61,201 nucleotides of DNA from contig CANFPJ010000007.1 in assembly GCA_947448885.1 (NCBI GenBank), positions 1-61,201 on the forward strand, written 5' to 3'. Below are positions 30,823 to 61,201 of the stretch, one piece after another; the stretch's first letter is position 1, and the number at the start of each line of letters is the position of its first letter. This DNA is from Comamonadaceae bacterium (GTDB lineage: Bacteria > Pseudomonadota > Gammaproteobacteria > Burkholderiales > Burkholderiaceae_C). The notes under the pieces were generated by a model, which was not told the DNA's origin, searched no databases, and was given only the letters and a program-made list of their open reading frames with translations. A program made the position numbers and the translations under genes.

Positions 30823-31569
30823 TCAAACCCCGCCCGAGACATCCACCACCGCGCCGGTGGAATAAGAAGACGCATCCGACACCAGCCAAGCGATCGCTTG
30901 GGCCACTTCTTCGGCGCGGCCAGCGCGTTTCATGGGCACAAAGTCTTTGGCCTTGCTGGCGCGATCGGCGTCGCCCGCAGCGGCGTGGATTTCGGTGTCG
31001 ATCAGACCGGGGCGAACGGCGTTGACGCGCACGCCCTCGGCGGCGACCTCGCGGGCCAGGCCGATGGTGAAAGTTTCAATGGCCGACTTGGACGCCGCAT
31101 AGTCCACCGCCATGCCTGGCGCACCGGTTTTGACAAATGCCGTGGACAGGTTGACGATGCTGCCGCCCGCGCCACCCTGGCGGGTGGACAGACGCGCCAC
31201 CGCCGCTTGCGCGCACATGAAAGTGCCCATCACATTGGTGGCAAACACCCGCTGAAAGCGCGCCGCATCCATGCCCTCCACCCGCGCATAAGGCGCGACG
31301 ATGCCCGCGTTGTTGACCAGCGCATGCAGGGGTGGGCATTCGCGGTCCACAAAGTCAAACAGGGCGTGCACTTGGTCAGGTTGCGACACATCAGCGGCCA
31401 CGCACCAAGCTTGGCCACCGGCGGCTTGGATGTCTTTCACCACCGCTTGGGCGGTGGCTTGGTTGCTGGCGTAGTTGATGCAAATGGCATGCCCTTGCTG
31501 GGCCAATAACCGAGCAGTGGCCGCGCCGATGCCGCGGCCGCCGCCGGTGATGAGAATGGTTTTCTTCAT
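30823..31569 (-). CDS. Short-chain dehydrogenase/reductase
   Basis: A 248-residue classical SDR. The cofactor motif TGGGRGIG is at residues 8-15, NNAG follows at about 88, the catalytic Ser lies in IVNLSTA and the Tyr-Lys pair in YAASK. The region after the first strand (INYASNQATAQAVVKDI) has no acidic residue directly after beta-2, which favours NADP. The substrate is unknown; relatives are annotated as 3-oxoacyl-ACP or glucose dehydrogenase-like. It overlaps the upstream gene by an ATGA, so it is the last gene of the tautomerase-SoxXA operon. Confidence 0.92.
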   Translation of the reverse strand: MKKTILITGGGRGIGAATARLLAQQGHAICINYASNQATAQAVVKDIQAAGGQAWCVAADVSQPDQVHALFDFVDRECPPLHALVNNAGIVAPYARVEGMDAARFQRVFATNVMGTFMCAQAAVARLSTRQGGAGGSIVNLSTAFVKTGAPGMAVDYAASKSAIETFTIGLAREVAAEGVRVNAVRPGLIDTEIHAAAGDADRASKAKDFVPMKRAGRAEEVAQAIAWLVSDASSYSTGAVVDVSGGV

Positions 31570-32303
31570 GCGGCCGGACCCGCCACGGTGACGCCGCGCA
31601 CGCCGTTGCGTTCGATGATTTGCGCGACCAAGCCCGATGCCTTGGCCTTCTCCACAAATTGGTGCAAATAGGCCGCAGCGGCCGTGCCGCCTTTGGGCAC
31701 CCCAATGGCTTGGCCAATGGCCGTGAAGCGACCCGCCAAAATGCGCGAGCCCGGCAGCTTGGCCTGCTCTTGCACCAAGCGTGGGCGCAGGCCCGACAGC
31801 GCCTCCAGGCCTTGGGCCACAAATTGGGCAAACGAGTCGTCCATGCTGGCCAGTTGCACCAACTGCGCGTGCTTCAAGCTGCGGCTCAAATACAAGTCGT
31901 AAGCACTTTTGTGCATGACCGCGATGCGCACACCGGCACGGTCGACATCTTCGATGCGCTGCAAGGGCGAGTTGGCCGGCACCAAATAGGTGGCCTCAAT
32001 CTCCAAATAGGGGGCCGAGAAATCAATCACGTTTTGGCGCGCCGGCTCGACCGCCAACAATGCCATGTGCCACACGCCGCTTTGCGCCGCATCGGCCATT
32101 TCACCGGGTGTGGCATAAGGGAGAAATTCAATCGGCACACCGATGTCTCGGGCCACTTCGCGCGCCAAATCGGGCGCGATGCCGGTGGGGGCAAGGTTTG
32201 GGTCTTTCATGCTGACCAATAAAAAATTGGCCAGGTTCAAGCCCACTTTCAAGGTGCCTTGGGGGGCGAGTTCTGCGCGCACGCTGTCCATTGAGGGGGT
32301 CAT
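31566..32303 (-). CDS. Type II periplasmic-binding-fold protein without signal peptide
   Basis: A 245-residue protein resembling amino-acid ABC receptors: GTLKVGLNLANFLLVS, APTGIAPDLAREVARDIGVPIEFLPYATPGEMADAAQSGVWHMALL and FSAPYLEIEATYLV are typical of lobe 1. No hydrophobic leader is present from the ATG at 32303, and extending upstream to 32387 does not add one. No ABC permease or ATPase lies near it. It may be a cytoplasmic enzyme or sensor with this fold, or a receptor whose export route is not obvious. It overlaps the SDR gene by 4 nt and starts 40 bp after the SoxXA stop. Confidence 0.78.
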   Translation of the reverse strand: MTPSMDSVRAELAPQGTLKVGLNLANFLLVSMKDPNLAPTGIAPDLAREVARDIGVPIEFLPYATPGEMADAAQSGVWHMALLAVEPARQNVIDFSAPYLEIEATYLVPANSPLQRIEDVDRAGVRIAVMHKSAYDLYLSRSLKHAQLVQLASMDDSFAQFVAQGLEALSGLRPRLVQEQAKLPGSRILAGRFTAIGQAIGVPKGGTAAAAYLHQFVEKAKASGLVAQIIERNGVRGVTVAGPAA

Positions 32304-32343
32304 GGTCGGTTCTTTCTGTGAACGAGGGAGTGAATCAAAAAAA

Positions 32344-33534
32344 TCAGCGCCGCACCGAAGGCCCCTCCAGGGGCATGCCGTTGGCACGGACTTTCAAATA
32401 CAGCTCCAGGCTGCGCAAAATGGCGCTGCCGGGCTCGGGCATGGCGGACTGTACGCCAGAGTAACAAGCGCGCAAGCGTCGGTCCATGCCCCCGGCTTGT
32501 TGCCATGACAAGCGATAAATGGGAAAGCCCGTGGGGTGACCCGGGCTGATGGTGTCGCCGCGCATTTGCGCGCCCACACGGTCATCGTGGCAATGGGCAC
32601 AGGAGAGGTTCATGCGTCCCTGCCGACTTTGGTATTGATCGGCACCGGCTTGCCACTGGGCTTGCCAAACCGATTGCCGAGCCACTGGTGCTTGCACCGC
32701 GATGGGTTCGCCACGTGCCGCGTGGTGCAGGGCTGCACTCAATGCCAACACCGTGTCGTCGGGCTGGGCACTGGATGCACCCTGGCGCTGTCGACACACA
32801 CCAATTTGGTCCTCCAGGTTGCGCAAGGACCGCCCATCAGGGCTTAGCTTGGGGTGCTGGGCCACGGCTTTGCGCATGTCAGCCACGGGTCCGTGGCAGG
32901 ACTGGCAAGTGGGGCCTGGCTTGCTTTGGCCCCAAGCCGCCAAGCCGCGCTCGACCCACAGGCTCATGGGGTTGGCCATGTCATCGTCGTTCATTTGGCG
33001 CAAGCTGGGCGACAAAAAAGCCAAGCCACTGATGCGCCCTTGGGTGTCTGGCGTCGGGTTCTTGGGTGCAAGGGTCAAGGGCGCTGATGTGGATGCGGAT
33101 GGCGAAAAAGCGGGCGGCGCAGAAGGTGTCTGCGCAATGACCGTTCGCTGCTGCAAGGCCAAAACCACCGCGTCAATTTGTTCGGTGCTCAACACCGCTT
33201 GGGCAGGTGCGGGTTGGCGCAAGCCACTCAAGCTGCCAAAAACCGGCATCAAGGTGTCGGGCCGCAGGTGGCGTGGATCGACCACCCATTGCCGCAACTG
33301 CGCCGCGTTGTAGCGCTGCGCCACCCCATCCAATGAAGGCGCAAAGGTGCTGGTGGATGCAGGAGCCGCCTGCCAAGCATGGCAGGCGCCGCAATTGCCC
33401 AGGCTGCGCTCGGTGATGATGCGCCAACCGAGATCGGCATTGGCCTGTGCCAACCCGGCCCAAAGGGCCAAGCCCAAGGGGCCCGCCCATGCCCTGACCC
33501 CTGAGCGAAATGCCCGCAGGAACGCCCGGGTCAC
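32344..33534 (-). CDS. SoxX-SoxA fusion, triheme cytochrome c of thiosulfate oxidation
   Basis: A 396-residue exported cytochrome in which SoxX- and SoxA-like domains are joined. A signal peptide (about residues 1-33) is followed by a SoxX-type domain with heme motif C48-GA-C51-H52 and PDTLMPVFG, where M96 would be the axial ligand. After a Ser/Pro/Ala linker (about 130-165) comes a SoxA-type domain: NPMSLWVERGLAAW, heme motif C210-QS-C213-H214, C247 as likely axial Cys, heme motif C312-AH-C315-H316 and RACYSG with C357 at the place of the SoxA active-site cysteine. SoxXA normally links thiosulfate to SoxYZ. No soxYZ, soxB or soxCD is in the window. A GTG start overlapping the upstream stop (GTGA) fits the signal peptide better than ATG 33567. 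Confidence 0.87.
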   Translation of the reverse strand: MTRAFLRAFRSGVRAWAGPLGLALWAGLAQANADLGWRIITERSLGNCGACHAWQAAPASTSTFAPSLDGVAQRYNAAQLRQWVVDPRHLRPDTLMPVFGSLSGLRQPAPAQAVLSTEQIDAVVLALQQRTVIAQTPSAPPAFSPSASTSAPLTLAPKNPTPDTQGRISGLAFLSPSLRQMNDDDMANPMSLWVERGLAAWGQSKPGPTCQSCHGPVADMRKAVAQHPKLSPDGRSLRNLEDQIGVCRQRQGASSAQPDDTVLALSAALHHAARGEPIAVQAPVARQSVWQAQWQAGADQYQSRQGRMNLSCAHCHDDRVGAQMRGDTISPGHPTGFPIYRLSWQQAGGMDRRLRACYSGVQSAMPEPGSAILRSLELYLKVRANGMPLEGPSVRR

Positions 33535-34091
33535 GCCGCCCTCTGGGTCTCGGCCAAATCGTTCCAAACCTCTTGCCGGGTGAACTGGCCGTTGACCACT
33601 TCAAAGCGGTCGATGAAGCGGATGCCTTCAAACGCAGTGCCATCGTTCCACACGCCAAACAAGGTGCCGCTGCAATACACCACGGTGGTGTCGCCTTGCC
33701 AACATTCGTCAAAGCGTTCGTAGCGTTTGGCCACCGAGCGGTAGCGCGGCTTGGCCCAATCCATCAACTGCTCCAAGCGGTGCATCACGAACGGGCCCGG
33801 AAAAACCATTTCAAAGCCTGGCGCCAAAAACGCTTGGGCCTCGGTCAGTTTGCGCGCGGCCATGGTTTCCAAAAAGCTTTGCACCCGCGCACTCGCATCG
33901 GGCACCACGGCCGCCCCAGCGGAATAGACCTTGCCATCGCGCCGATAGGTGCTGGCCTCGTTGATGAACACCGTGGTCCCCGCATCGCTGGCGGAGATCA
34001 CCGAACGGGCGGTGTCGGCCAAGCGTTGCACCAAGCGGTGCTGGGCCTCAGGCGGATAGCCCGGCAACAAAGTCACAGTGATCACAGGCAT
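33531..34091 (-). CDS. Tautomerase-NTF2/SnoaL fusion protein
   Basis: A 186-residue two-domain protein. Residues 1-65 resemble the 4-oxalocrotonate tautomerase family, with Pro directly after Met (MPVITVTLLPGYPPEAQHRLVQRLADTA...), the residue that acts as general base in that family. Residues 68-180 have an NTF2/SnoaL pattern (VQSFLETMAARKLTEAQAFLAPGFEMVFPG, WNDGTAFEGIRFIDRFEVVNGQFTRQEVW). The combination suggests a bifunctional isomerase or a tautomerase with a binding domain; no reaction can be named. First gene of the operon with SoxXA, the binding-fold protein and the SDR. Confidence 0.72.
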   Translation of the reverse strand: MPVITVTLLPGYPPEAQHRLVQRLADTARSVISASDAGTTVFINEASTYRRDGKVYSAGAAVVPDASARVQSFLETMAARKLTEAQAFLAPGFEMVFPGPFVMHRLEQLMDWAKPRYRSVAKRYERFDECWQGDTTVVYCSGTLFGVWNDGTAFEGIRFIDRFEVVNGQFTRQEVWNDLAETQRAA

Positions 34092-46376: not shown

Positions 46377-47486
46377 TCATGCTTGCACCGGCCCTGTGGT
46401 GGGCGCTGGACTGCGGTGGGCCGGGATCTTGCCCGCTTGGATATCGTCATGCCAGAGTTCGTGGTGTTCCTTGGCCCAGGTTTCGTCAACATACCCGGTG
46501 CGCATGGCTTGGTATGCGCCCGCCATGCCCACGGTGCCCATGTAAATGTGGCCCAAGAACATGGCCATCATCAAGACCGTGGCCACGGCATGCACCATGT
46601 GGGCGATTTGCATCTCACCCCGGGTGTAAACGAAACTGGGCAGCAACTTGTCCAGAAACAAGCCGGAGACCACCACCACCGCGCCCAAGGCAAACACACC
46701 GCCCCAGAATAAGACTTTTTCGCCGGCATTGAAACGGTGCGACGGCACTTCCTGGCCGCCAAACATGCCGCCGCCTTTGAGCAACCAAGTCAGGTCACCT
46801 TTGCTGGGGAAGTTGTCTTTCACAAAGGTGAAAAACACCACCACCAGGGAGACGGCAAACAAGGGGCCGGCAAAGTTGTGGGCGTTTTTCAGGGCATAGG
46901 TGAGCCAACCAAACAAGCTGCTGCCCATGATGGGCAACAGAAAAAATTTGCCAAAGGCCATGACCACACCGGACACCGCCAAGATACAAAAAGCAATGGC
47001 ATTGGCCCAATGGGCGCTGCGCTCAAACGGTGTGAAGCGTTCGATCTTGCGACCCGTGGTCTGCCCGTGCAAAGCCATGGTGCCACGGCGCCAGTAAAAG
47101 ATGGCCAAGGCGCCCAGCACCATCACCAGCAGCGACCCGCCGTAAGGAATGATCCAGTGGTTGCGCACCTGACGCCATGCCTCGCCTGCATTGGTCAAAG
47201 GCGCGCCGGGGTATTGGGCAAAAGGCTGAACCAAATTCCCCGCTTCGGGCGCCTGGCTCAGGGGCAGGCTGCTGTAACCCGTGGTGCCTTGCCCCACTTG
47301 GCGCCACACCGGCGCGTTGTTGCCCGGCTGCACCTGGGCCCGCTCGGCATTGCTTTGTTGCAAGTATTGGGGGTCGGCCGATGCCTCGACAGCCGCGGGA
47401 GGCGTGGCGGGCTTGTCTTGGGCGGCCACACCGCTGCACAGCCAGGGCAAGGTCCAAGCGATGGCCCAAATCATGGTGCGTTTCAT
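46377..47486 (-). CDS. fdhC: Formate dehydrogenase gamma subunit, cytochrome b
   Basis: Membrane anchor that passes formate electrons from the iron-sulfur subunit to quinone. The 369-residue product has a signal peptide (MKRTMIWAIAWTLPWLCSGVAA), a periplasmic domain to about residue 115 and hydrophobic segments beginning WIIPYGGSLLVMVLGALAIFYW. The cytochrome b part has ERSAHWANAIAF, NAHNFAGPLF, HMVHAVATVLMM and GHIYMGTVG, which supply histidines for heme b. The start at 47486 fits the signal peptide; an upstream extension is rejected. The periplasmic N-terminal extension is long for FdnI but usual in Fdh3-type enzymes. Confidence 0.92.
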   Translation of the reverse strand: MKRTMIWAIAWTLPWLCSGVAAQDKPATPPAAVEASADPQYLQQSNAERAQVQPGNNAPVWRQVGQGTTGYSSLPLSQAPEAGNLVQPFAQYPGAPLTNAGEAWRQVRNHWIIPYGGSLLVMVLGALAIFYWRRGTMALHGQTTGRKIERFTPFERSAHWANAIAFCILAVSGVVMAFGKFFLLPIMGSSLFGWLTYALKNAHNFAGPLFAVSLVVVFFTFVKDNFPSKGDLTWLLKGGGMFGGQEVPSHRFNAGEKVLFWGGVFALGAVVVVSGLFLDKLLPSFVYTRGEMQIAHMVHAVATVLMMAMFLGHIYMGTVGMAGAYQAMRTGYVDETWAKEHHELWHDDIQAGKIPAHRSPAPTTGPVQA

Positions 47487-47502
47487 GGTGTTTGGCCTTT
47501 GC

Positions 47503-47736
47503 TCAGTTGGATTTGGCGTAATCGTTTTGCCCATCCTGGGCACGGGTGCGCAAAGCTTGCTCCCAACTGGTTTTGTCACCCGCCTTCCAGCCGCCATTGA
47601 CAAAAGCAGTTGGTGCATTGCCGGTGCCAGTGAACGGCGCAGCATCCGACTTGGTGCCCAAGGTCTGGGGTTTTTCCATGCAAGCACTCAAGCCCAAGCT
47701 GGCCACCAAAGCCACGGACAAAAGGGATTTGCTCAT
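47503..47736 (-). CDS. Small lipoprotein of the formate dehydrogenase operon
   Basis: A 77-residue predicted lipoprotein. The lipobox is LSAC in MSKSLLSVALVASLGLSAC, so the mature protein would begin at the cysteine. The mature part is polar (NGGWKAGDKTSWEQALRTRAQDGQNDY). Its ATG overlaps the fdhB stop (ATGA), which ties its expression to the catalytic subunits, and fdhC follows 16 bp later. No family was recognised; a role in complex assembly or membrane attachment is a guess. Confidence 0.8.
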   Translation of the reverse strand: MSKSLLSVALVASLGLSACMEKPQTLGTKSDAAPFTGTGNAPTAFVNGGWKAGDKTSWEQALRTRAQDGQNDYAKSN

Positions 47737-48359
47737 GATTTGCCGCCTTCCTTGGCCGGTGCGGTGCCGGCTTTGCTGCTGCCGTAAGCCGTGCCCCAAC
47801 CCCACACCTCAGCGCCCTTGTTGCGCTTGAGCACGCGGTTGCGGAAGATGTCGGCCACCACGTCACCGTCACCAGCGAGCAAGGCCTTGGTCGAACACAT
47901 TTCAGCGCAAGCGGGCAATTTGCCTTCGGCCAAGCGGTTGCGACCATATTTTTCAAACTCAGCCTGGCTGCCATTGGCTTCTGGGCCGCCTGCACAGAAG
48001 GTGCATTTGTCCATCTTGCCGCGCACACCAAACGTGCCTTGAGCGGGGAACTGCGGCGCCCCAAATGGGCAGGCGTAAGAGCAGTAGCCGCAGCCGATGC
48101 AGACGTCTTTGTCATGCAACACAACGCCTTCGTCGGTTTTGTAAAAACAGTTGACCGGGCACACCGCCATGCAAGGTGCGTCCGAGCAATGCATGCACGC
48201 GACCGAAATGGACTTCTCGCCGGGCACGCCGTCATTCAAGGTGACCACCCGGCGGCGGTTCACGCCCCAGGGAACTTCGTGTTCGTTTTTGCAAGCGGTG
48301 ACGCAACCATTGCATTCGATGCAACGCTCGGCATCACAGATGAACTTCATGCGGGCCAT
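47733..48359 (-). CDS. fdhB: Formate dehydrogenase beta subunit, four-cluster ferredoxin
   Basis: Electron-transfer subunit of the membrane-bound formate dehydrogenase, 208 residues. The [4Fe-4S] motifs are CIECNGCVTACK, CMHCSDAPCMAVCP, CIGCGYCSYACP and CTFC...CAEMCS, the standard four-cluster arrangement of the FdnH/DmsB family. No C-terminal membrane helix is seen, unlike FdnH. GGAG lies upstream of the ATG at 48359, 31 bp after fdhA. Confidence 0.96.
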   Translation of the reverse strand: MARMKFICDAERCIECNGCVTACKNEHEVPWGVNRRRVVTLNDGVPGEKSISVACMHCSDAPCMAVCPVNCFYKTDEGVVLHDKDVCIGCGYCSYACPFGAPQFPAQGTFGVRGKMDKCTFCAGGPEANGSQAEFEKYGRNRLAEGKLPACAEMCSTKALLAGDGDVVADIFRNRVLKRNKGAEVWGWGTAYGSSKAGTAPAKEGGKS

Positions 48360-48390
48360 GGGAATCTCCTATTCGGGTGTGGGGTGCAGC

Positions 48391-51348
48391 TCACGCCCGC
48401 TCGATGTTGCACACAGTGGTCTTGGTCTCTTGCATCATGGTGACGCTGTCGTAGCCATAGGTGGTGGCGGTGTTGATCGCCTCGCCCCGCACCACCGGTG
48501 CCGCGCCAGTGGGGTAATGCGCCAACATGTCAGCGCCTTGCCAACGGCCCGAGAAGTGAAACGGCAAAAACACCGTGTCGGGTCCCACCCGTTCGGTGAC
48601 CATGGCCATGACCTTGATGCGCGCCCCGGTGGGGGTGCTGACCCAAACTTGCTCGCCATTGCGCACACCGCGATCGGCGGCGGCTTTGGGGTTGAGCTCG
48701 ACAAACATGTCTTGCTGCAATTCGGCCAACCAGGGGTTGGAGCGGGTTTCTTCGCCGCCACCCTCGTACTCCACCAAACGGCCAGAAGTCATGATGAGCG
48801 GGTACTTTTCGTGCACCTTGTCGGCGATGTTCTTGTCTTGCACGGTTTTGTACAAGGTGGGCAAACGCCAGAAGGCCTTTTTATCGTCGTGGGTCGGGTA
48901 CTTGGCCATCAGATCAGGCCGGTTGCCATACAAGGGCTCGCGGTGCTGGGGGATGGCGTCGGGGAAGTTCCACACCACGGCCCGTGCTTTGGCATTGCCA
49001 AACGGGTGGCAGCCGTGGTTTTGCATGAACACGCGGATCATGCCGCCAGAGCTGTCGGTCTTCCAGTTTTTGCCTTCGGCGGCGGCTTTTTCGGCGTCAT
49101 TGAGTTCGTCCCACCAACCCAGCTTTTTGAGCAGCACATGGTCCAACTCGGGGTAGCCGGTGGTGATGTCGGCGCCCAAGGAGTGCGAGCCGTCTTCGGC
49201 CAACAGGCTCTTGCCCTCACGCTCCACACCAAAGTTGGCACGGAAGTTACCGCCGCCCTCCATGACGTGTTTGGAGGTGTCGTACAAATTGGGTGAGCCT
49301 GGGTGCTTGAGCGCCGGGGTGCCCCAACACGGCCAGGGCAAACCGAAGTAATCGCCGGTGAAGTCGTAACCCGTGGCGGCGTCTTTGCCGCCTTTGGCCT
49401 TGAGCGTTTTGACATCGAACAAATGCATGTTGCGCATGTGCGCTTGCAGCCGCTCAGGGCTTTGGCCGGTGTAGCCAATGGTCCACACGCACTTGTTGAT
49501 TTCGCGCAAGATGTCATCGGGCACGGGTTCGTCCATGCCTTTGACTTTTTGCATCTTGTAGTTTTTGACCAGCTCTTTGTCAAAGCCCAGCTTTTGCGCC
49601 AGTTGGTACATGATCATGTGGTCAGAGCGGCTCTCCCACAAGGGCTCAATGACTTTTTCGCGCCATTGAATGGAGCGGTTGGACGCGGTGCATGAACCGC
49701 TGGTTTCAAACTGTGTGGCCGCCGGCAACAGGTAAACCGCGCGGTTGGGGTTTTTGTCTTCGGCCTTGCCCGGCATGGCGGCCATGGCCGCGGTGGCCGA
49801 TGGGTAGGGATCGACCACCACCAACAAGTCCAGCTTGTCCATGGCGCGCTTCATCTCCAGGCCACGGGTTTGCGAGTTGGGTGCATGGCCCCAGAAGAAC
49901 ACACCGCGCAGATTGCTGTCTTGGTCGATGAACTCGTTTTTCTCCATCACGCCGTCAATCCAGCGCGATACCGTGATGCCCGGCTTGCTCATCATGCCAG
50001 GGGCTGAAAAGCGGCCCTTGATCCATTCAAAATCCACGCCCCAGGTCTTGGCGAAATGCTTCCACGAGCCCTCGACCAAACCGTAATAACCGGGCAATGA
50101 GTCGGGGTTGGGGCCGACATCGGTGGCGCCTTGCACGTTGTCGTGGCCACGGAAGATATTGGTGCCACCACCGGACTTGCCCACATTGCCCAAGGCCAAT
50201 TGCAAAATGCAAGAGGCGCGCACCATGGCGTTGCCTATGGTGTGTTGGGTTTGGCCCATGCACCAAACGATGGTGCCAGGTCGGTTTTCATGCAGCCAAG
50301 TGGCCACTTTGATCATTTGTTCGGGCTTGACGCCACAGGCCTCTTCGACCTTGTCGAGCGTCCATTTGGCCATCACATCTTCTTTGACCTTGTCCATGCC
50401 ATAGACCCGGTCGTTGATGTATTTTTTGTCTTCCCAACCGTTTTTGAAGATGATGTGCAGCAAGCCAAACAAGAACGGAATGTCGGAGCCTGAGCGGATG
50501 CGCACATACTCGTCGGCCTTGGCCGCCGTGCGGGTGAAGCGCGGGTCAACCACGATCATCTTGGTGCCGGTTTCTTTGGCATGCAGCATGTGCAGCAAGC
50601 TCACCGGGTGCGCCTCGGCCGCGTTGGAGCCGATGTACAAAGCGACCTTGCTGTTTTGCATGTCGTTGTACGAGTTGGTCATGGCCCCGTAACCCCAGGT
50701 GTTGGCCACGCCAGCCACGGTGGTGGAGTGGCAAATGCGCGCTTGGTGGTCGCAGTTGTTGCTGCCCCAAAAACTCACAAACTTGCGCAGCAAATAGGCT
50801 TGCTCGTTGTTGTGCTTGCTCGAACCCACCCAGTAGATAGAGTCTGGGCCACTGGTCTTGCGCAGCTCGAGCAATTTCTCGGAAATTTCATTCAGTGCTT
50901 GGTCCCAGCTGATGCGCTGGTATTTGCCGTCGACCAACTTCATCGGGTGGCGCAAGCGGAACTCACCATGGCCGTGCTCGCGCAAAGCCGCACCCTTGGC
51001 GCAATGTGCGCCCAGGTTGATGGGCGAGTCAAACACCGGTTCTTGGCGCACCCACACGCCGTTTTCCACCACCGCATCGACCGCACAACCGACCGAGCAA
51101 TGGGTGCAGACGGTGCGCTTGACTTCCACCTTGCCAGAACCGTCACCTTGGTTGGGGCCAGCAGCTTGGGACTTTTTCACCAAGGTCAGTTGGCTGGCGG
51201 CCAAGCCCACGCCCACGCCCAAGCCCGAACGGCGCAAAAAAGCGCGTCGGTCCATGGTGGGAATGGCCTGGGCCAAGCCCCGCTGCAGGCGGTGAACAAA
51301 CGGTGAGCCTGCGCGAGGGGTGCTGTCGGATTTTTTGGTCAGTAGCAT
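48391..51348 (-). CDS. fdhA: Formate dehydrogenase alpha subunit, molybdopterin enzyme with cysteine ligand
   Basis: Catalytic subunit, 985 residues, oxidising formate to CO2 in the periplasm. The long N-terminus has a twin-arginine signal (D33-RRAFLRRSGLG) preceded by 32 residues. C81, C84, C88 and C116 bind the proximal [4Fe-4S] cluster. The metal ligand is C206 in HQARICHSTTVAG, encoded TGC, so the enzyme is Cys- not Sec-type. NMQNSKVALYIGSNAAEAHP and the C-terminal MTSGRLVEYEGGGEETRSNPWLAELQQDMFVELNP region bind the bis-MGD cofactor. GAGGA precedes ATG 51348. It resembles Fdh3-type respiratory enzymes. Confidence 0.96.
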   Translation of the reverse strand: MLLTKKSDSTPRAGSPFVHRLQRGLAQAIPTMDRRAFLRRSGLGVGVGLAASQLTLVKKSQAAGPNQGDGSGKVEVKRTVCTHCSVGCAVDAVVENGVWVRQEPVFDSPINLGAHCAKGAALREHGHGEFRLRHPMKLVDGKYQRISWDQALNEISEKLLELRKTSGPDSIYWVGSSKHNNEQAYLLRKFVSFWGSNNCDHQARICHSTTVAGVANTWGYGAMTNSYNDMQNSKVALYIGSNAAEAHPVSLLHMLHAKETGTKMIVVDPRFTRTAAKADEYVRIRSGSDIPFLFGLLHIIFKNGWEDKKYINDRVYGMDKVKEDVMAKWTLDKVEEACGVKPEQMIKVATWLHENRPGTIVWCMGQTQHTIGNAMVRASCILQLALGNVGKSGGGTNIFRGHDNVQGATDVGPNPDSLPGYYGLVEGSWKHFAKTWGVDFEWIKGRFSAPGMMSKPGITVSRWIDGVMEKNEFIDQDSNLRGVFFWGHAPNSQTRGLEMKRAMDKLDLLVVVDPYPSATAAMAAMPGKAEDKNPNRAVYLLPAATQFETSGSCTASNRSIQWREKVIEPLWESRSDHMIMYQLAQKLGFDKELVKNYKMQKVKGMDEPVPDDILREINKCVWTIGYTGQSPERLQAHMRNMHLFDVKTLKAKGGKDAATGYDFTGDYFGLPWPCWGTPALKHPGSPNLYDTSKHVMEGGGNFRANFGVEREGKSLLAEDGSHSLGADITTGYPELDHVLLKKLGWWDELNDAEKAAAEGKNWKTDSSGGMIRVFMQNHGCHPFGNAKARAVVWNFPDAIPQHREPLYGNRPDLMAKYPTHDDKKAFWRLPTLYKTVQDKNIADKVHEKYPLIMTSGRLVEYEGGGEETRSNPWLAELQQDMFVELNPKAAADRGVRNGEQVWVSTPTGARIKVMAMVTERVGPDTVFLPFHFSGRWQGADMLAHYPTGAAPVVRGEAINTATTYGYDSVTMMQETKTTVCNIERA

Positions 51349-51361
51349 GGGAGGTCCTCGA

Positions 51362-51571
51362 TCAGACACGGGTGGTTTGGTAGTAACGCTTGACGTGTTC
51401 GCTCAAGCTGTAACCGCCGCCCTTGGCCGGCGCGGCTGGCAAACTTTCTGAGGGGATTGCGGCCCCTGTGTCAACGGCCTTGACACTGGCCACCGTGGCC
51501 ACAGCCGCGCCTGCGGCAGCGGCACCCCAGAAGAATCCCCGGCGTGAGGTAGGTGCTGATTGGTTGTTCAT
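51362..51571 (-). CDS. Small Tat-signal protein of formate dehydrogenase loci
   Basis: A 69-residue protein known as the formate dehydrogenase region Tat target (TIGR02811-type). It has a twin-arginine-like start, SRRGFFWGAAAAGAAVATVASV, and a conserved tail YSLSEHVKRYYQTTRV. It lies 13 bp upstream of fdhA and is likely needed for assembly or export of the complex; its exact function is unknown. The ATG at 51571 is preceded by GGAG; a longer upstream frame is rejected. Confidence 0.9.
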   Translation of the reverse strand: MNNQSAPTSRRGFFWGAAAAGAAVATVASVKAVDTGAAIPSESLPAAPAKGGGYSLSEHVKRYYQTTRV

Positions 51572-51763
51572 GCAGATATCTCCAAGATAAATTGCTTTCC
51601 CAAAAGGTAAAAATTCACCAGAAAACCTGCGCACAGAGCGCACATAAACTTCATTGCAATTTTCAGGTGTTTATCAGTTTAAAGAGCAAGGGTTTTTCCT
51701 TATAAGAAGAAATATATATTTTTTAAATGACTGTGCATCACTCCGCATGACCAATGCATGGGA
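51572..51763 (-). promoter_or_regulatory. AT-rich leader, probable promoter of the respiratory formate dehydrogenase genes
   Basis: The longest non-coding stretch in the window (192 bp) and markedly AT-rich around 51660-51730. It separates the TorD-like gene from the Tat-signal gene and fdhABC, all on the minus strand. CTTATAAG (centred at about 51704) is palindromic and could hold a -10 box. A short inverted repeat TGCGC-ACAGA-GCGCA is at 51628-51642. No terminator was found after the chaperone gene, so read-through from upstream is possible too. Confidence 0.5.
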
Positions 51764-52396
51764 TCAACCCCCATCCAACATGTCAAAACCCTGGGTCTCG
51801 ACCTCAGCAAAGGCCCTCAGCAACCCTGCCAAAGCCGCATAAAACTGAGCGCGCGGGTGGGCCTGCAAGGCGTCACACACCAGGTGCACCCAGGGCTGCA
51901 GGTGGCGTGCAAAGAATTCTTTTTGGCGACTCAAGTTGGCCACGGCCACATCGTCCCCAGCGATCAAATAGCGCATGACCTCGCACAAATAGGACACATG
52001 GTCCTCGGTTTCGGGCAAGCTTTCATCGCGGCCCAAGCCCAACTCGGCCAAATCGGTGCGCAAGGCCGCCAAGGGTTTTTCGTTCAAAAAGCCACTCAGG
52101 TGGTGTGAAGCAAACAAATACACCTCGGGCTGACCCAAGCCACCAAACAGGGCATCGTGTTCGGCGGCAATCTGGCTTGGGTTGGCGCTTCTGGAGACGC
52201 TCACCAACTGGCGCCATGGTTCTTCCAAAAAGCCCCCTGAAGCGGGGGCCTCGGTCACCGCCACGCGCAGTTGGCCCAGCAAAGCGTCATCCGGGGGGGC
52301 GTAAAACAAGCCCGCGATCAAGCCATATAACTCGGCGCGGGCGGTTTCTTCGTCCAAGGCCGACGATGTGGGGGGTGGGGTCAAAGGCAGGTTCAT
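51764..52396 (-). CDS. TorD/DmsD-like molecular chaperone
   Basis: A 210-residue all-helical chaperone of the TorD family. RAELYGLIAGLFYAPPDDALLGQL opens the fold, AAEHDALFGGLGQPEVYLFASHHLSGFL is the hinge region (family ExxxLF...P..S), and EDHVSYLCEVMRYLIAG and FFARHLQPWV follow. These proteins bind the Tat leader of a molybdoenzyme and help insert the cofactor. Here the client is most likely FdhA, 0.4 kb downstream. It follows the multi-cluster ferredoxin gene by about 35 bp. Confidence 0.9.
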   Translation of the reverse strand: MNLPLTPPPTSSALDEETARAELYGLIAGLFYAPPDDALLGQLRVAVTEAPASGGFLEEPWRQLVSVSRSANPSQIAAEHDALFGGLGQPEVYLFASHHLSGFLNEKPLAALRTDLAELGLGRDESLPETEDHVSYLCEVMRYLIAGDDVAVANLSRQKEFFARHLQPWVHLVCDALQAHPRAQFYAALAGLLRAFAEVETQGFDMLDGG

Positions 52397-52431
52397 GGAT
52401 TTGGCTGGCGGTGGATCAGGGCAAGGACCCG

Positions 52432-54522
52432 CTAAACGATGCGCTGCTCGTCACCCGCCGAGTAAATGTCGATCACCCGGCAATCGCTGCACATCTTGAG
52501 TCGCTCGGCAGCCGCCCCTTGAAACATGGCGTGACCGCTGAGCTTGCCCAGCATCGCCTCAATGGCTTTCAAGGTGCCAAACGGCTTGCTGCAACGCACA
52601 CAGCTGTAAGGCTGGCTTTGGTTGAGCACCTGGCGCTCTAGGCGCGCGGGGGTGAGCAACAAACGCGGCATGGTTTGGATGGCGTTTTCAGGGCAGGTCG
52701 TGACGCACAAACCGCACTGCACACAATTCTTTTCGATGATGGCCAGCTCCGGCTTTTCCGGGTTGTCTTGCAAGGCGATGGCCGGACAAGCGCTGACGCA
52801 GCTCAGGCACAAGGTACACGCGGCCGCATCGACTTGCACGCCACCCCAAAAAGCCCCAGCGGCGGGCAGCGCAATGGCTTCGGGCCGCGATGCAGCCGCC
52901 GGGGCATGGCTCATCCAATGGTTCAAGGCCATCTCCAACGAGCTGCGTTTGTCCCGGGTCAGGGCAAATTTGGCCGCTGGCGGCCGTTGGGCAGGCGCTG
53001 GGGGCAAGGCTTGGAGTTGCGCATCCAAATCACGCTCGTGCAATGCGTGGATGCCCAGGATGTGCTGACCTGGGTACCCCAACCCATGCAACACCGTTTG
53101 CACTTGGTCCATTTGGGCCTGCACCGCTTGCAGGTACTGAGGCGCCTCTTCATCGGTGGTCAACACCAGCACTTGGGCAGCCCCAAAAGCCAGCATGGAC
53201 ATCCACACATCGGCACCCACACTCGCGGTGTGCCACATGGGCATGGGGATCACGCGTGCAGGCAAGCCATGGGCGCGCTTCAAAGCGGCCGCTCGCCCCA
53301 GCGCATGGACCAGCGCCTGACCCTGGCCTTGGCTGTGCAGCAACAAAATCGCATCGCGGCCACCCGCCTTGGCATAGGTGCTGAGCAGCGTTTTGGCGGT
53401 GACACCCCAATGGCTGACGTCGGGATAGGCATAGGTCAGCGCACCCGTGGGGCACACGGTGGTGCAAGCCCCACAGCCCACACACAAGTGCGGGTTGACC
53501 TTGATTTGCTGGCGGCTGGCATCGCTGGAGATGGCCTGGGCTGAGCACACATCGATGCAAGCATGACAACCGATTTGGGTGTTGCGGCTGTGCGCACAAA
53601 CGCTGGCCTTGTACTGAAAGAACTTGGGCTTTTCAAACTCACCCACCAGCTCGCGCAAGCGCAGCAAAGTCGCCATGTCGTCTTGGCGAAAGTAGCCCTG
53701 CGGCAGGGCGTGGCGGTCAAAGGCCGGGGTGCTGCGCAAGTCCAACACCACATCAAACTCGGCGCTTTCGACCAGGGGCTCGCGCTGAAAATCAATCGCA
53801 CCGGCAACACCACAGGCCTTCACGCAATCGCGGTGCGATTGACAGGCCGCCAAATTGACCTGGTAGTCCAAGCCAATCGCTTGCTCAGGGCAAGCAGCCA
53901 CACAGGCATTGCAGCGGGTGCACAAATCCAAATCGATGGGGTTGCTGCGCCGCCATTGCAAGTTGAACGCACCCAACCAACCGTTCAAGCCCACCCATTC
54001 ACCCGCGATGACCGGGTAGCGGCGGTCTTGCGCCGGCACGCCACTGAGCGGGCCATCGGCCATCAAGGTGATTTCCAGGGCATCGCCCAAGCTATCGGCC
54101 AAGGCCTGGGCGCGGCCCAATTCGGCGACGATGAGCAATCGACCCGCGCTTTTGTAAGTGACCGAGGGCACGGGCTCGGCATCGGGCATTTGCGCCTGGG
54201 CCAACAGGGCAGCCATTTTGGGCATGGCCTGGGCCGACTCTCGCCCCCACCCTGCCGTCTCGCGGATGTTGACAAACTTCATCGGCACCCAAGGCAAGGC
54301 CGGGTTTGATTCACGGGCTTGCTGCGCCAAGTCTTCAAACAAACGTTTTTCTTGGGTACAAGCCACCACCAGCGGTTCGCCACCCTGGAGGGCATTCAAA
54401 AAGCCCTGGGCTTCGCGCCGACACAAACTGCTGTGCACATGCAGCGATTCATTCAGGCTTTGACCCAGCGCCTTTGCATCCAAGGGCATGGTCTGGTTGC
54501 AATCACAAATCAGGGTGGTCAT
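52432..54522 (-). CDS. Multi-cluster 4Fe-4S ferredoxin of formate dehydrogenase maturation loci
   Basis: A 696-residue iron-sulfur protein with at least six ferredoxin-type motifs. They include CTRCNACVAACP, CQSHRDCVKACG, CHACIDVCS, CVGCGACTTVCP, CTLCLSCVSACP and CVQCGLCVTTCP. A final CVRC and CSDC pair may bind metal or another cluster. The N-terminal about 150 residues carry two further Cys-containing strands (LICDCNQ, VVACTQEKRLFEDLAQQA), and the middle has a Rossmann-like stretch. It is cytoplasmic. Position with DUF3305, DUF3306 and a TorD-like chaperone suggests electron delivery or maturation for formate dehydrogenase; the exact role is unknown. Confidence 0.85.
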   Translation of the reverse strand: MTTLICDCNQTMPLDAKALGQSLNESLHVHSSLCRREAQGFLNALQGGEPLVVACTQEKRLFEDLAQQARESNPALPWVPMKFVNIRETAGWGRESAQAMPKMAALLAQAQMPDAEPVPSVTYKSAGRLLIVAELGRAQALADSLGDALEITLMADGPLSGVPAQDRRYPVIAGEWVGLNGWLGAFNLQWRRSNPIDLDLCTRCNACVAACPEQAIGLDYQVNLAACQSHRDCVKACGVAGAIDFQREPLVESAEFDVVLDLRSTPAFDRHALPQGYFRQDDMATLLRLRELVGEFEKPKFFQYKASVCAHSRNTQIGCHACIDVCSAQAISSDASRQQIKVNPHLCVGCGACTTVCPTGALTYAYPDVSHWGVTAKTLLSTYAKAGGRDAILLLHSQGQGQALVHALGRAAALKRAHGLPARVIPMPMWHTASVGADVWMSMLAFGAAQVLVLTTDEEAPQYLQAVQAQMDQVQTVLHGLGYPGQHILGIHALHERDLDAQLQALPPAPAQRPPAAKFALTRDKRSSLEMALNHWMSHAPAAASRPEAIALPAAGAFWGGVQVDAAACTLCLSCVSACPAIALQDNPEKPELAIIEKNCVQCGLCVTTCPENAIQTMPRLLLTPARLERQVLNQSQPYSCVRCSKPFGTLKAIEAMLGKLSGHAMFQGAAAERLKMCSDCRVIDIYSAGDEQRIV

Positions 54523-54564
54523 GGCAGCGGATTGTGCATGACAGTGGTATGGCCACCGGCCGGT

Positions 54565-55236
54565 CTAGGCCTTGGGTACAGGCAGGGTGGTGGCGTGGGG
54601 GCCAGTGTCACCCGCGGGTTGGCAACTGGCAATTGAGGTCTCGGTCGCATCGGATGCTTGCGCGCTCAAAGGCGCTTGACCCATGTCCTCATCGGGCGCG
54701 CCAGCCCATGCGGCTTTGTCTTTGTCCTGTTCTTCATCTTCAAACAAGTTCAAAAACTTCGCCCCGTTCATTTGCCGCAGCATGGCCAGGGGCAAAGGGT
54801 CGGGCTGGCTGTAGTCGTCAATGTAGATGTCCATGCGGTCCATCACATTGAAGTGCGGATCGGCAAAGAGTTTCTTCATGGCGGCGTTTTTCACCTCAGG
54901 GGCCACGCCCTGCGCCATGAAGGGACGAAAGTCTGATGCGGGGGTGAGGGCTTGGGCATCGGCCATTTGCGGCGCAGGCACTGGGTCGCTGAGTGGCGCA
55001 TGGGGTGCCAAAGGCGGAGCGGGCGAATCAGGTGCAGGCGCAGCAACGGTTTGCGCGAGGCGGCGTTGCGAGGTTTCCCCATGTGCGGGGCTGGCGCCCG
55101 GGGTTGGCGTGGTGCCTTCTGGTTGGGCTGACCCCACCACCGGCAAGGTGTTGGGTTTGTGGTTTGCCTCTGACGTGCCAAGCCCTTGCAATGATTTGCG
55201 TTTGGACCAGCGCTGCAAAAAACCGTCATCAGCCAT
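54565..55236 (-). CDS. DUF3306 domain protein
   Basis: A 223-residue protein of DUF3306, found in formate dehydrogenase gene clusters. The N-terminus FLQRWSKRKS is a family hallmark, and the core PEVKNAAMKKLFADPHFNVMDRMDIYIDDYSQPDPLPLAMLRQM at about residues 130-175 is the conserved block. A long Pro/Ala-rich low-complexity region (residues 25-100) separates them, with an acidic C-terminus. Function is unknown; the context argues for a role in assembly of the enzyme. Confidence 0.88.
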   Translation of the reverse strand: MADDGFLQRWSKRKSLQGLGTSEANHKPNTLPVVGSAQPEGTTPTPGASPAHGETSQRRLAQTVAAPAPDSPAPPLAPHAPLSDPVPAPQMADAQALTPASDFRPFMAQGVAPEVKNAAMKKLFADPHFNVMDRMDIYIDDYSQPDPLPLAMLRQMNGAKFLNLFEDEEQDKDKAAWAGAPDEDMGQAPLSAQASDATETSIASCQPAGDTGPHATTLPVPKA

Positions 55237-55265
55237 GGTGAGATGTTAAGGCCCAGGCCATGCCC

Positions 55266-55811
55266 TCAAAGCTTGCGGTTTTTATCGGTGGTGATCGAAG
55301 CGGGGTTGCCAAAGCGGTCTTGCAGCCCCCGAAAGCTCTCTGGGCGTTGGCGTTTTTTGCCCTCTGCCACCCAATGGGTTTGGGCAAACTCGCTCATCCA
55401 AGCCAGAACTTCTAGCGGCGCGGGCACTTGATCCACGCTTTCTTGGGCATCGAGCCAACGACCCGCGTCGTGGTAACTCAAGCTGACCATGGTGGGCACG
55501 GCCACCGGTTCTTGGGCCAATGCCGCCTCCTCTTCCATGCGCCACAGCACAAACCAACAGGGCTGGGGCGAGGTGGCGTTGAGGTAGTAGCCTTCGGCAT
55601 CGTCTTTGAACAAACCGACTTCAAAGCCCGTGTGCAGCCAAATTTGCACATCTTCGCTGTCGCTCAACAAGCGTGCGGGTCCGCTGTGGCTGGGGTCTTG
55701 CAAAACCACATCGTGCAACACCCAGCGCCAAGTTTGCCATTTGGACATGGCACCAGGCACACGCTCGCGGCGCATCAAAACACTGGTGGTGAGGGGGGTC
55801 CAGTCGGTCAT
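55266..55811 (-). CDS. DUF3305 domain protein
   Basis: A 181-residue protein of DUF3305, normally encoded next to DUF3306. It begins with a strand containing TTSVLMRRERVPGAMSKWQTWRWVLHDVVL. Later blocks are VGLFKDDAEGYYLNATSPQPCWFVLWRMEEE and ARWLD-type VSLSYHDAGRWLDAQESVDQVP, ending ARPLEVLAWMSEFAQTHWV-like. Function is unknown. The ATG at 55811 is 7 bp from the stop of the secreted hydrolase gene. Confidence 0.88.
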   Translation of the reverse strand: MTDWTPLTTSVLMRRERVPGAMSKWQTWRWVLHDVVLQDPSHSGPARLLSDSEDVQIWLHTGFEVGLFKDDAEGYYLNATSPQPCWFVLWRMEEEAALAQEPVAVPTMVSLSYHDAGRWLDAQESVDQVPAPLEVLAWMSEFAQTHWVAEGKKRQRPESFRGLQDRFGNPASITTDKNRKL

Positions 55812-55818
55812 GGGCGGA

Positions 55819-56706
55819 TCAACGCACATCGGCGTTGTTGGCCTGGCCGGTTTTTAAAATTTGGCCGATGTGCTGCATCACCTCGCGCTCTTTGCCCGTG
55901 AAACCATGCTCTGTGAAAGCGCGGCAAGGATGGCCTTGAAAACCGCTGCCCCCATGCACAGTGACCAGGGGAATGTTGAATTTCTGCGCCAATTTGGCTG
56001 CCCCTGAATGGGTGGTGAACGGACACGGATCATTTTGGTGGTGCACAAAGGCCTGCACGCCAGTGATTTGCCCATAGTCAAAACCACCGAGTTCTCGGTA
56101 AGAGTACATGGCATAGGGTTCTGTGATGGCAGCGGTGTGAATCGCCCCGGCATACACCCCCTTGCCATGCATGGGCATGAAAGCGCTGGAGATGCTGCCC
56201 ATGCTGGTGGACACCAGCCACACCTTTTGGATGCTGGGCAGTTGCTGGCGCACCGATTGGATGAGTGCCGACACATCGCTGTGTCGGCCTGCCGACGCTT
56301 GGTATTTGGATGAGCACTCGTCGCCACTGTCGCTGCGGCAGTCGACCAGCAACAAAGCAATGCGCTCATCGGACAAATGGCGCCGCGCGCGCACCAGAAA
56401 GTTGCCCGGCAGGCGCGATGCGCTCATGCGTTGATCGGTCACCACCGGTCGCAACACCGATGGGTGGCCGGGGAGCAACACGGCCAACACATCGGGGCTT
56501 TGGGTGCCGGTGCGCAAAGACAACACACCTTCTTGCCGCACACCCGGCGACAACTCAACGCTCACCAATTGCTCTGTCAAATTTTCCCAAGCGGCGGGCG
56601 TTTGTGCCATCACGCTGGGACTACCCAGCCACAGGGCTGTCCACAGGGCCAAGCCCATCGAAAAAACAAAAGTGAAACGCTGCATGGGTCGGTATTTCAT
56701 GGTCAT
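55819..56706 (-). CDS. Secreted alpha/beta hydrolase inside the formate dehydrogenase operon
   Basis: A 295-residue protein with a signal peptide (MTMKYRPMQRFTFVFSMGLALWTALWLGSPSVMA). The nucleophile elbow is STSMG, the acid may be in HHQNDPCPF and the histidine in GFQGHPCRAFTEHGF, so an esterase/lipase-type triad is available. Four or more cysteines in the mature part (VDCRSDSGDECSS, NDPCPF, GHPCRAF) could form disulfides in the periplasm. It begins just after the fdsA stop and ends 7 bp before DUF3305, so it is embedded in the operon. Its relation to formate metabolism is unexplained. Confidence 0.78.
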   Translation of the reverse strand: MTMKYRPMQRFTFVFSMGLALWTALWLGSPSVMAQTPAAWENLTEQLVSVELSPGVRQEGVLSLRTGTQSPDVLAVLLPGHPSVLRPVVTDQRMSASRLPGNFLVRARRHLSDERIALLLVDCRSDSGDECSSKYQASAGRHSDVSALIQSVRQQLPSIQKVWLVSTSMGSISSAFMPMHGKGVYAGAIHTAAITEPYAMYSYRELGGFDYGQITGVQAFVHHQNDPCPFTTHSGAAKLAQKFNIPLVTVHGGSGFQGHPCRAFTEHGFTGKEREVMQHIGQILKTGQANNADVR

Positions 56707-56714
56707 GGATGGTC

Positions 56715-59546: not shown

Positions 59547-61201
59547 GCGGCCTCCTCAGGGCTGGCACCGACTTCATGCGGAAAATACCTCAGCACGCAC
59601 TGAATCGGGTTGGGGGCGGCCTGACCCAAGCCGCAAATCGAAGCGTCGCCCATCACTTGCGCCAAGTCTTGCAAGGTGGCGACGTCCCACACTGGGGCTT
59701 GCATCAAGGCGGCAGCCTTGTCGGTGCCCACCCGGCATGGCGTGCATTGGCCACAGCTTTCGTCGGCGAAAAACTGCATCACGTTCAAGGCCGCATTGCG
59801 GGCCCGGTCGTTGTGACCCAAAACCACGATGGCCGCCGACCCAATGAAACAACCGTGCGCTTGCAGGGTGTCAAAGTCGAGGGGCACATCGGCCAAACGC
59901 GCCGGCAAGATGCCGCCTGAAGCACCGCCCGGCAAATACGCATACAAGGTGTGGCCAGGGGCCATGCCACCGCAATATTCATCGATCAATTCGCGCAGCG
60001 TGATGCCCGCCGGTGCCAACTTGACGCCGGGCTCACGGACACGCCCGCTGACACTGAAAGAGCGCCAACCCGTGCGCCCATGCCGGCCTTGCCGGGAAAA
60101 ATGCGCCGCCCCGCGCTCGACCATGTCGCGCACCCAATACAGCGTTTCAAAGTTGTGCGCCAACGTGGGTTTGCCCCACAAACCCTTTTCGGCAATATAG
60201 GGGGGGCGCAGGCGCGGCTCGCCACGGCGCCCCTCAATGCTCTCCAGCATCGCTGACTCTTCGCCACAAATGTAGGCACCCGCACCGCGGCGCAATTCCA
60301 TGTGGGGCAAAGCACAGGGTGGCTGGGCTTGCAGCTCGGTCATCGCTTGGGTCAAGGTGGTGCGGCAGCCGTGGTATTCATCACGCAGGTAGATATAAAT
60401 GCGCTCGCAGCCCACCACCTGGGCCGCCAAGAGCGCGCCCTCCAAAAAGCGGTGCGGATCACGCTCCAAATACACCCGGTCTTTGAAGGTGCCGGGCTCG
60501 CCCTCGTCGATGTTGACGGCCATGTAACGCGGCCCGGGTTGATCGCGCACGATGCGCCATTTGCGCCCCGCAGGAAAGCCGGCCCCGCCCAAACCGCGCA
60601 AGCCCGAGCTCTCCATGGTGAGCAACACAGACTCGGTGTCGACACGCCCGGCCACCACATCAACCAGCAAACGGTAGCCCCCGTCGGCGCGGTAAGCGTC
60701 CAGCCCCACCGCCTGCGGGTGGGCAGGCTCACACCAAGCTTGCGGCGCTTGGGGCCAAGCTTGTGGGGCCGTGGGTGCCTGCGGAAAAGAACCTGCTGCC
60801 ACACAGGCTTTCACCGCATCCACCGTGGCATGGACCACAGCGCGCTGGTGCACCACCGCCACCGGCGCCGTTTCGCACCGCCCCACACAAGGCGCACGCA
60901 GCACTTGAACACCTGGGTCCATTTGCGCTTGCAATTGATCGAACAAGGCATCAGCCCCGGCCAAGCTGCACGAGAGGCCGTCACACACCCGAAGGGTCAA
61001 GCGCGGGGCGGCTTGGCCTTCATCCAAGATATGGAAGTGGTGGTAAAAACTGGCCACCTCGTAGACCTGTGACAGGCTCAATCGCATGAGCTGGGCCAAG
61101 GCCACCAAATGGCTTTTGTGCAATCCGCCGTGGGCGTCTTGCAACAGATGCAAATGTTCAATCAACCCATCGCGTGGGTACCCATCCTGCGGGGCTTGGC
61201 C
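59543..61201 (-). CDS. fdsB: NAD-linked formate dehydrogenase beta subunit, NuoE-NuoF fusion (5' end outside window)
   Basis: Diaphorase subunit passing electrons from FdsA to NAD+. The visible 552 residues include a NuoE-like domain (EVASFYHHFHI, then C73 and C78 in VCDGLSCSL and C105 and C109 in APCVGRCETAP for a [2Fe-2S] centre) followed by a NuoF-like domain. The latter has the FMN/NAD loop SGLRGLGGAGFPAGRKW, GEPGTFKDR, GAYICGEESAMLESIEG and the C-terminal cluster CGQCTPC. The frame is open to the right edge for 12 codons beyond the first internal TTG, with NuoE-like residues, so it is 5'-truncated. In other genomes NuoE- and NuoF-type parts are encoded as separate fdsG and fdsB. Confidence 0.92.
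   Translation of the reverse strand, partial: GQAPQDGYPRDGLIEHLHLLQDAHGGLHKSHLVALAQLMRLSLSQVYEVASFYHHFHILDEGQAAPRLTLRVCDGLSCSLAGADALFDQLQAQMDPGVQVLRAPCVGRCETAPVAVVHQRAVVHATVDAVKACVAAGSFPQAPTAPQAWPQAPQAWCEPAHPQAVGLDAYRADGGYRLLVDVVAGRVDTESVLLTMESSGLRGLGGAGFPAGRKWRIVRDQPGPRYMAVNIDEGEPGTFKDRVYLERDPHRFLEGALLAAQVVGCERIYIYLRDEYHGCRTTLTQAMTELQAQPPCALPHMELRRGAGAYICGEESAMLESIEGRRGEPRLRPPYIAEKGLWGKPTLAHNFETLYWVRDMVERGAAHFSRQGRHGRTGWRSFSVSGRVREPGVKLAPAGITLRELIDEYCGGMAPGHTLYAYLPGGASGGILPARLADVPLDFDTLQAHGCFIGSAAIVVLGHNDRARNAALNVMQFFADESCGQCTPCRVGTDKAAALMQAPVWDVATLQDLAQVMGDASICGLGQAAPNPIQCVLRYFPHEVGASPEEAA

Follow-up and report, generated by a model that had tools for sequence, protein, structure and literature searches.

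A single-chain SoxX-SoxA cytochrome of a Comamonadaceae bacterium and its possible role beside SoxB-less clusters for a molybdenum hydroxylase and SoxYZ

A gene encoding SoxX and SoxA in one polypeptide was identified in a 61,201-nucleotide stretch of DNA (the whole stretch analysed, termed the window) from a Comamonadaceae bacterium. This soxXA gene (32344..33534, minus strand; GTG start at 33534, stop at 32344) encodes 396 amino acids, and its product is best explained as an exported, single-chain, three-heme SoxXA. It is proposed, with a probability of roughly 60%, that this protein loads an altered SoxYZ carrier in trans, as part of a SoxB-independent pathway coupled to a molybdenum (Mo) hydroxylase. 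The fused protein is a real and conserved variant of SoxXA, notable mainly because it points to a SoxB-less Mo-SoxXYZA system.

The product begins with a likely signal peptide (residues 1-33, 33436..33534, ending in AQANA; read by eye), the sequence of which is little conserved across the three genomes carrying this fusion. The SoxX half (residues 34-127, 33154..33435) contains the heme site CGACH (48-52, 33379..33393) and the Met ligand candidate M96. It is followed by a fast-evolving linker rich in Pro, Ala, Ser and Thr (residues 128-167, 33034..33153), which varies in length between genomes. The diheme SoxA half (residues 168-396, 32347..33033) contains the heme site CQSCH (210-214, 32893..32907) and the active-site heme CAHCH (312-316, 32587..32601). 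C247 (32794..32796) aligns to 1h31_A at the axial-Cys position of the first SoxA heme and is invariant in the three fusions. C357 (32464..32466) is the active-site, persulfide-type Cys and forms the pattern YR-x11-R-x3-C with R341 and R353. All of these features are on the minus strand. The preliminary description, made from the letters of the window, had proposed that SoxX and SoxA are fused, that the chain has three c-type heme sites and that its axial cysteines are of the SoxA type, and it was right: every residue named is present in the 396-aa translation and its coordinates hold, the strand, which it did not give, being minus.

NCBIfam profiles matched residues 189-396 to SoxA (TIGR04484, 164-166 bits, cut-off 110) and residues 45-126 to SoxX (TIGR04485, 55-59 bits; significant at E 9e-15, but below the cut-off of 61). 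The fused protein of genome G010, which belongs to a second group treated below, scores 78.7 bits with the SoxX profile, above this cut-off. A phmmer search of the PDB aligned residues 169-395 with SoxA (1h31_A, E 6.6e-31) and residues 35-112 with SoxX (1h31_B, E 1.1e-12). The preliminary description had named assignment of either half to another cytochrome family as evidence against it; both halves were assigned to SoxX and SoxA, the SoxX half below the family cut-off. PDB entries 1h31-1h33 and 2c1d are presumably SoxXA (SoxAX) of Rhodovulum sulfidophilum and Paracoccus pantotrophus. These share with the window protein the domains, the three heme sites, the axial-Cys positions and the active-site Arg/Cys pattern, but consist of two chains instead of one. 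The two-subunit layout of SoxXA has no match here, since the gene is a single 396-aa frame and the protein is also one chain in two further metagenome-assembled genomes (MAGs). A structure predicted from three sequences (mean pLDDT 33.5, pTM 0.21) was set aside.

These two MAGs (G002, locus L006, and the genome of L007) carry the same fusion with 80-81% identity to the window protein. Over the three genome pairs, dN/dS was 0.07-0.10 in the SoxX half and 0.055-0.12 in the SoxA half, while synonymous change was saturated in the linker and, for two of the three pairs, in the signal region. The ligand residues are all invariant in the three fused proteins. An assembly error joining two neighbouring genes, the other objection raised in the preliminary description, is ruled out because the fusion is intact in three MAGs and both halves are under purifying selection while the linker varies. 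For the same reasons a decaying gene or assembly artefact is extremely improbable, even though the SoxX half scores under its family cut-off.

The window's assembly (G000, 88.5% complete) contains further sox genes, so the description of the fusion as an orphan does not hold at the genome level. A canonical sox cluster on contig C27 comprises soxC (586 bits), a cytochrome gene labelled SoxD-like in this analysis, and soxYZAXB, with SoxB at 838 bits; the genome-wide search for soxYZ, soxB and soxCD that had been suggested thus located soxB, soxC and the SoxD-like gene on C27, and soxYZ on C27, C6 and C58. SoxA is encoded at two loci (C27, 236 bits, and the window), as is SoxX convincingly (C27, 88 bits, and the window; the next matches reach 21 and 18 bits). 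SoxY is encoded at three loci (C27, above the cut-off, C6 and C58), and so is SoxZ (C27, C58 and C6 with 137, 74 and 73 bits, respectively; cut-off 76). The SoxA of C27 has one CxxCH, whereas the window SoxA half has two, and the two sequences are 31% identical. Contigs C6 (L094:5725-9238) and C58 (L095:1336-4812) each carry a cluster in the order [2Fe-2S] subunit, Mo subunit, SoxY and SoxZ. SoxX and SoxA were absent by tblastn from the stretches of 16 and 10 kb read around these clusters. The presence of two SoxX and two SoxA loci against three SoxY and three SoxZ loci in this genome points to a partnership in trans.

The association of this SoxA lineage with Mo clusters was followed in 121 genomes including G000, 90 of which match the fused protein at E 1e-5. 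The divergent SoxA type, defined by a match of E 1e-20 or better to the SoxA half, was found at 65 loci in 64 genomes. For the comparison with these loci the stronger Mo matches were used, down to that of G066; none of the remaining Mo matches shares a contig with an unpaired SoxA. A Mo subunit gene starts within 10 kb of the divergent SoxA in 50 of the 65 loci. Among the misses, G036 and G060 have a Mo gene cut by the contig end beside SoxX, the contig of G034 ends just past SoxX, and in G048, G031, G068, G004, G021, G032 and G008 the contig ends on the relevant side or is shorter than 4 kb; no such cut is evident in G016, G026, G070, G002 or G000 itself. By genome, 59 contain both SoxA and Mo, 5 SoxA only, 15 Mo only and 42 neither (Fisher P 2e-14, kinship ignored), and the corresponding counts within the genus alone are 52, 5, 7 and 9 (P 1e-4, kinship ignored). 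Gene orders were read at 72 loci, chosen for Mo or SoxA matches or as comparisons. Two orders recur: 2Fe2S-Mo-SoxX-SoxY-SoxZ-SoxA, and SoxXYZA facing Mo-2Fe2S. Mo, SoxX, SoxY and SoxA occur together in 22 of these loci, and Mo with SoxY lacking X or A in 21. Genes for TTT-type receptors are present in 15 of the 72, which is weak evidence since such receptors are common in these bacteria.

An order-wide sample of 399 genomes also gave a SoxA match at E 1e-20 in 53 of them, and the 20 best new SoxA loci among these 53 formed a second sample. Mo was present in 16 and SoxX in 19 of the 20. G125, one of the loci without Mo, is cut by its contig, and G242, G204 and G336 have none near. SoxB was found in none of the 20 loci, tblastn included, whereas the control SoxB was found in three of three. 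Because the gene caller discards a gene when a longer frame overlaps it, SoxX in G345 and G254 was missed; claims of absence were therefore repeated by tblastn. The 21 loci lacking SoxX and SoxA still showed neither; of four weak matches, one (45 bits) falls on soxZ of C6 and the other three score about 31 bits. No other match spanning both halves was found among the 399 genomes. A fusion of the second kind would appear in this search only as a long frame, and each of the 11 frames of at least 360 aa, all inspected, has a separate SoxX. As a side observation, at L174, L234 and L213 (G077, G173 and G213, respectively) the SoxA frame measures 355-405 aa and no SoxZ was called separately. The long G077 frame matches soxZ of C6 (34% over 120 aa) and may be a SoxZ-SoxA fusion.

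Among the loci read, Mo-SoxYZ clusters without SoxX and SoxA occur in 19 other genomes, some of them near contig ends, and 16 of these genomes hold a divergent SoxA elsewhere, so sharing in trans looks common. The genomes G088, G101 and G111 have such clusters and no divergent SoxA at E 1e-20, and these clusters may thus use another loader or none. The link between Mo and SoxYZ is not universal, because Mo subunits of the same family were found with no SoxY or SoxZ labelled nearby in G003, G007, G016 (contig C20) and G070 (contig C26), at L134, L149, L153 and L154.

The SoxY carriers of the Mo clusters have an altered C-terminal arm. Four canonical SoxY sequences were seen, all ending in GGCGG. 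This ending occurs in none of 51 SoxY sequences of the Mo-cluster type, a count that concerns the inferred partners of the fusion, whereas all 51 have a Cys within the last 14 residues, 47 of them in the form [AS]C[VLMFTI][DE]. The second sample agrees: each of the 18 SoxY tails found has a Cys and none ends in GGCGG. Neither soxB nor soxYZ, the other mark of canonical Sox when in the same cluster, is present in the window, and soxB is likewise missing from the second sample of the lineage. Among NCBIfam models, TIGR04487, "SoxY-related AACIE arm protein", matches the SoxY of C6 and C58 best (119 and 101 bits, respectively, below its cut-off), and it shows that SoxY paralogues with other arms are already known to curators. 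Like TIGR04487 and TIGR04557 ("quinoprotein dehydrogenase-associated SoxYZ-like carrier"), the C6 and C58 carriers are SoxY-like with a non-GGCGG arm or a tie to a dehydrogenase, but they fall below the cut-offs (172 and 140) and their neighbour is a Mo/[2Fe-2S] enzyme.

The Mo subunits of C6 and C58 match NCBIfam models of the xanthine dehydrogenase type far below the cut-offs, and that of C6 has MoCoBD Pfam domains. In both, RR occurs close to the N-terminus and GVGEP close to the C-terminus; of all 71 Mo sequences longer than 600 aa, 62 have the first motif and 63 the second. We take these motifs to be a Tat signal and the catalytic Glu, and the protein is probably a Tat-exported Mo subunit of the xanthine dehydrogenase family. 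A Mo enzyme adjoining SoxYZ recalls SoxCD, but C27 matches the SoxC/sulfite dehydrogenase model, whereas the C6 Mo subunit, with its MoCoBD domains, has its best matches, below their cut-offs, in the xanthine dehydrogenase family.

A second group of fused SoxX-SoxA proteins (382-383 aa) was found in G010, G001 and G004 (L038:8442-9593, L039:4719-5867 and L040:1-1103, respectively, the last cut by the contig end). Their halves are 44-48% identical to those of the window protein. In G010 and G001 the fusion lies beside a 2Fe2S-Mo-SoxY-SoxZ cluster, on the other strand. A 446-aa protein, presumably a SAF-domain-like dehydrogenase, is encoded next to the fusions of this group. In a quick tree, the C6 Mo subunit falls in a set of seven rows (SH-aLRT 100) with those of G010, G001, G004, G072 (contig C12), G027 (contig C52) and G061 (contig C8). 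Over 564 aa, the C6 Mo subunit is 92% identical to one encoded in the L007 genome; the latter lies at a contig end, so its SoxYZ is beyond reach. In the SoxYZ tree the rows nearest to C6 are those of G010 and G001, and no starred set contains C6. SoxX and SoxA of both fused groups cluster with the type of G065 (support 100/100), while the C6 Mo subunit clusters with the type of G061 and G010; the loader and the Mo enzyme thus do not have one shared history.

The six fused proteins are separated from the rest by a branch with a support of only 76/77, and a single origin of the fusion is favoured over two. A SoxA tree that took canonical SoxA as its root (branch length about 4) was judged unreliable and left out. 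An origin by deletion of soxYZ from an X-Y-Z-A cluster was considered since the closest free SoxX and SoxA flank soxYZ. It was dropped because the second group keeps soxYZ, with the fusion on the other strand, and because SoxXA and the Mo subunits differ in their closest relatives.

The proposed function builds on these associations. The diheme-SoxA lineage would normally work in SoxB-less clusters composed of a [2Fe-2S] subunit, a Mo subunit and SoxX-SoxY-SoxZ-SoxA, unlike canonical SoxXA, which is paired with SoxB and SoxCD. The fused protein lies apart and would act in trans on the SoxYZ of C6 and C58, above all C6. Its active-site heme and Cys would couple a small thiol or sulfane compound oxidatively to the altered SoxY arm, at its C-terminal Cys, with electrons leaving through the SoxX heme. 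The Mo hydroxylase would then act on the SoxY-bound group and so replace SoxB and SoxCD. The pairing of this SoxXA type with Mo-SoxYZ clusters is supported by the association of SoxA with Mo at 50 of the 65 loci, by that in the second sample and by the position of the G010 and G001 fusions; the choice of C6 is supported by the close Mo subunit of the L007 genome and by the grouping of the C6 Mo subunit with those of the second fused group. Against the partnership, the fusion and the Mo-SoxYZ clusters are not directly linked in G000, and free soxX and soxA of this type could be missing from its incomplete assembly. The gene coupled to soxXA by four bases encodes a tautomerase/SnoaL protein and is not a sulfur gene. 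G002, whose fusion is 81% identical, has no close Mo subunit (best 29%), but this genome is only 57% complete.

The weakest step concerns the substrate. The xanthine dehydrogenase family normally hydroxylates carbon, and on this ground an organic thiol is tentatively suggested as the SoxY-bound group. One can then picture, with similar reserve, a widespread periplasmic pathway in which SoxXA loads a thiol on the altered SoxY and the carrier-bound thiol is oxidised by the Mo hydroxylase at the carbon adjoining the sulfur, with release of a carbon product and a SoxY persulfide and without SoxB. Thiol acid degradation with SoxY-like carriers may have been treated in earlier work; it was not found among the open-access literature matches, and nothing here rests on it. 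The accessible part of PMC11582611 describes a SoxYZ fusion near a PQQ-dependent alcohol system in Hyphomicrobium, so SoxYZ may have a non-sulfur role in these clusters too.

Three other functions of the fused protein were weighed, one of them drawn from its neighbours. No other sox gene is present in the window, as the preliminary description had noted: references for SoxA, X, Y, Z and B matched none of the other open reading frames of at least 60 aa, and tblastn with SoxX, SoxA and SoxB returned the fused gene as the sole match. The upstream gene (33531..34091, minus strand) encodes weak tautomerase-like and SnoaL-like domains, both below the Pfam cut-offs, and 4 bases (GTGA) are shared by its stop and the soxXA start, a geometry common to G002 and L007 by their coordinates. 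Downstream on the same strand lie a gene for an SBP_bac_3 domain with no signal peptide evident by eye (31566..32315) and, overlapping it, a gene (30823..31569) whose translation reads as that of a short-chain dehydrogenase (SDR), presumably so; this pair also occurs in G002 and G038. Minus-strand genes at 46400-61201 read like two formate dehydrogenase systems, names which we assume from their N-terminal translations. The fused protein might serve the adjacent catabolic genes (Rieske oxygenase, FAA hydrolase, SDR and tautomerase/SnoaL) as a periplasmic electron acceptor or as a sulfur-removing step on an organic substrate, with no need of SoxYZ. The overlap kept in three genomes and the synteny conserved with G002 speak for such a role. 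It is nevertheless unlikely, since tautomerase/SnoaL relatives occur in 20 of the 121 genomes (E 1e-15, the window genome and G002 included, some with the SnoaL part only), none of the four further loci inspected (L096-L098 and L103) has SoxXA beside the tautomerase/SnoaL gene, and G038 has the SBP_bac_3-SDR pair without the fusion.

A slightly better, still improbable, reading makes the protein a spare SoxXA that loads thiosulfate on the canonical, GGCGG-armed SoxYZ of C27. That cluster is present in the genome and the active-site residues are SoxA-like, but C27 has its own SoxX and SoxA, the identity to its SoxA is low, and the lineage travels with Mo-SoxYZ clusters without SoxB. Formation of tetrathionate by a TsdA-like thiosulfate dehydrogenase, the example given in the preliminary description, is not favoured and is the least probable of the three. 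Pfam domain PF21342 is common to SoxA and TsdA, and according to the accessible part of PMC4423706 TsdA needs no SoxYZ and has a homologous catalytic cytochrome domain and a Cys-ligated heme. The score with the SoxA profile speaks against this function. The window protein also differs from TsdA in its second SoxA heme and its SoxX domain. Of 49 SoxA sequences, among them canonical ones, 48 show the pattern YR-x11-R-x3-C; the remaining one (G068, contig C221) is cut by its contig. R341, aligned with the SoxA-specific Arg, is kept, and position Cys+4, an invariant Ser in TsdA (PMC4423706, accessible part), is V361 here. The same part of PMC4423706 treats the roles of the active-site Arg residues, which were matched to the window protein by our own alignment; taken together, this favours oxidative coupling of the SoxA type to a carrier Cys over TsdA-type chemistry. 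The relatives also sit with SoxYZ, the usual co-substrate of SoxXA. The broader expectation of a partial or altered Sox chemistry fits the SoxB-less Mo-SoxYZ context, and loading of an altered SoxYZ in trans is the preferred reading.

No SoxXA fusion was found in the open-access full-text literature, and the accessible parts of PMC6397845, PMC2147049, PMC4423706, PMC5373536, PMC6370202, PMC11582611, PMC4782131 and PMC8364033 contain none. A SoxXYZA cluster with a Mo enzyme of the xanthine dehydrogenase type was absent from the open-access matches listed, a weak absence. Another incomplete Sox set, soxYZ beside flavocytochrome c with no other sox genes, is described in the accessible part of PMC4782131.

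SoxXA is hard to study mechanistically (PMC4423706, accessible part), and a single-chain SoxXA would be a convenient reagent because one chain fixes the stoichiometry. The occurrence of SoxXYZA with an altered SoxY arm, tied to an enzyme of the xanthine dehydrogenase family and lacking SoxB, implies that genomes with an "incomplete Sox" set, scored as thiosulfate oxidisers, may do something else. The divergent SoxA in 64 of the 121 genomes, and the SoxA matches in 53 of the 399 sampled across the order, give the scale on which this may apply.
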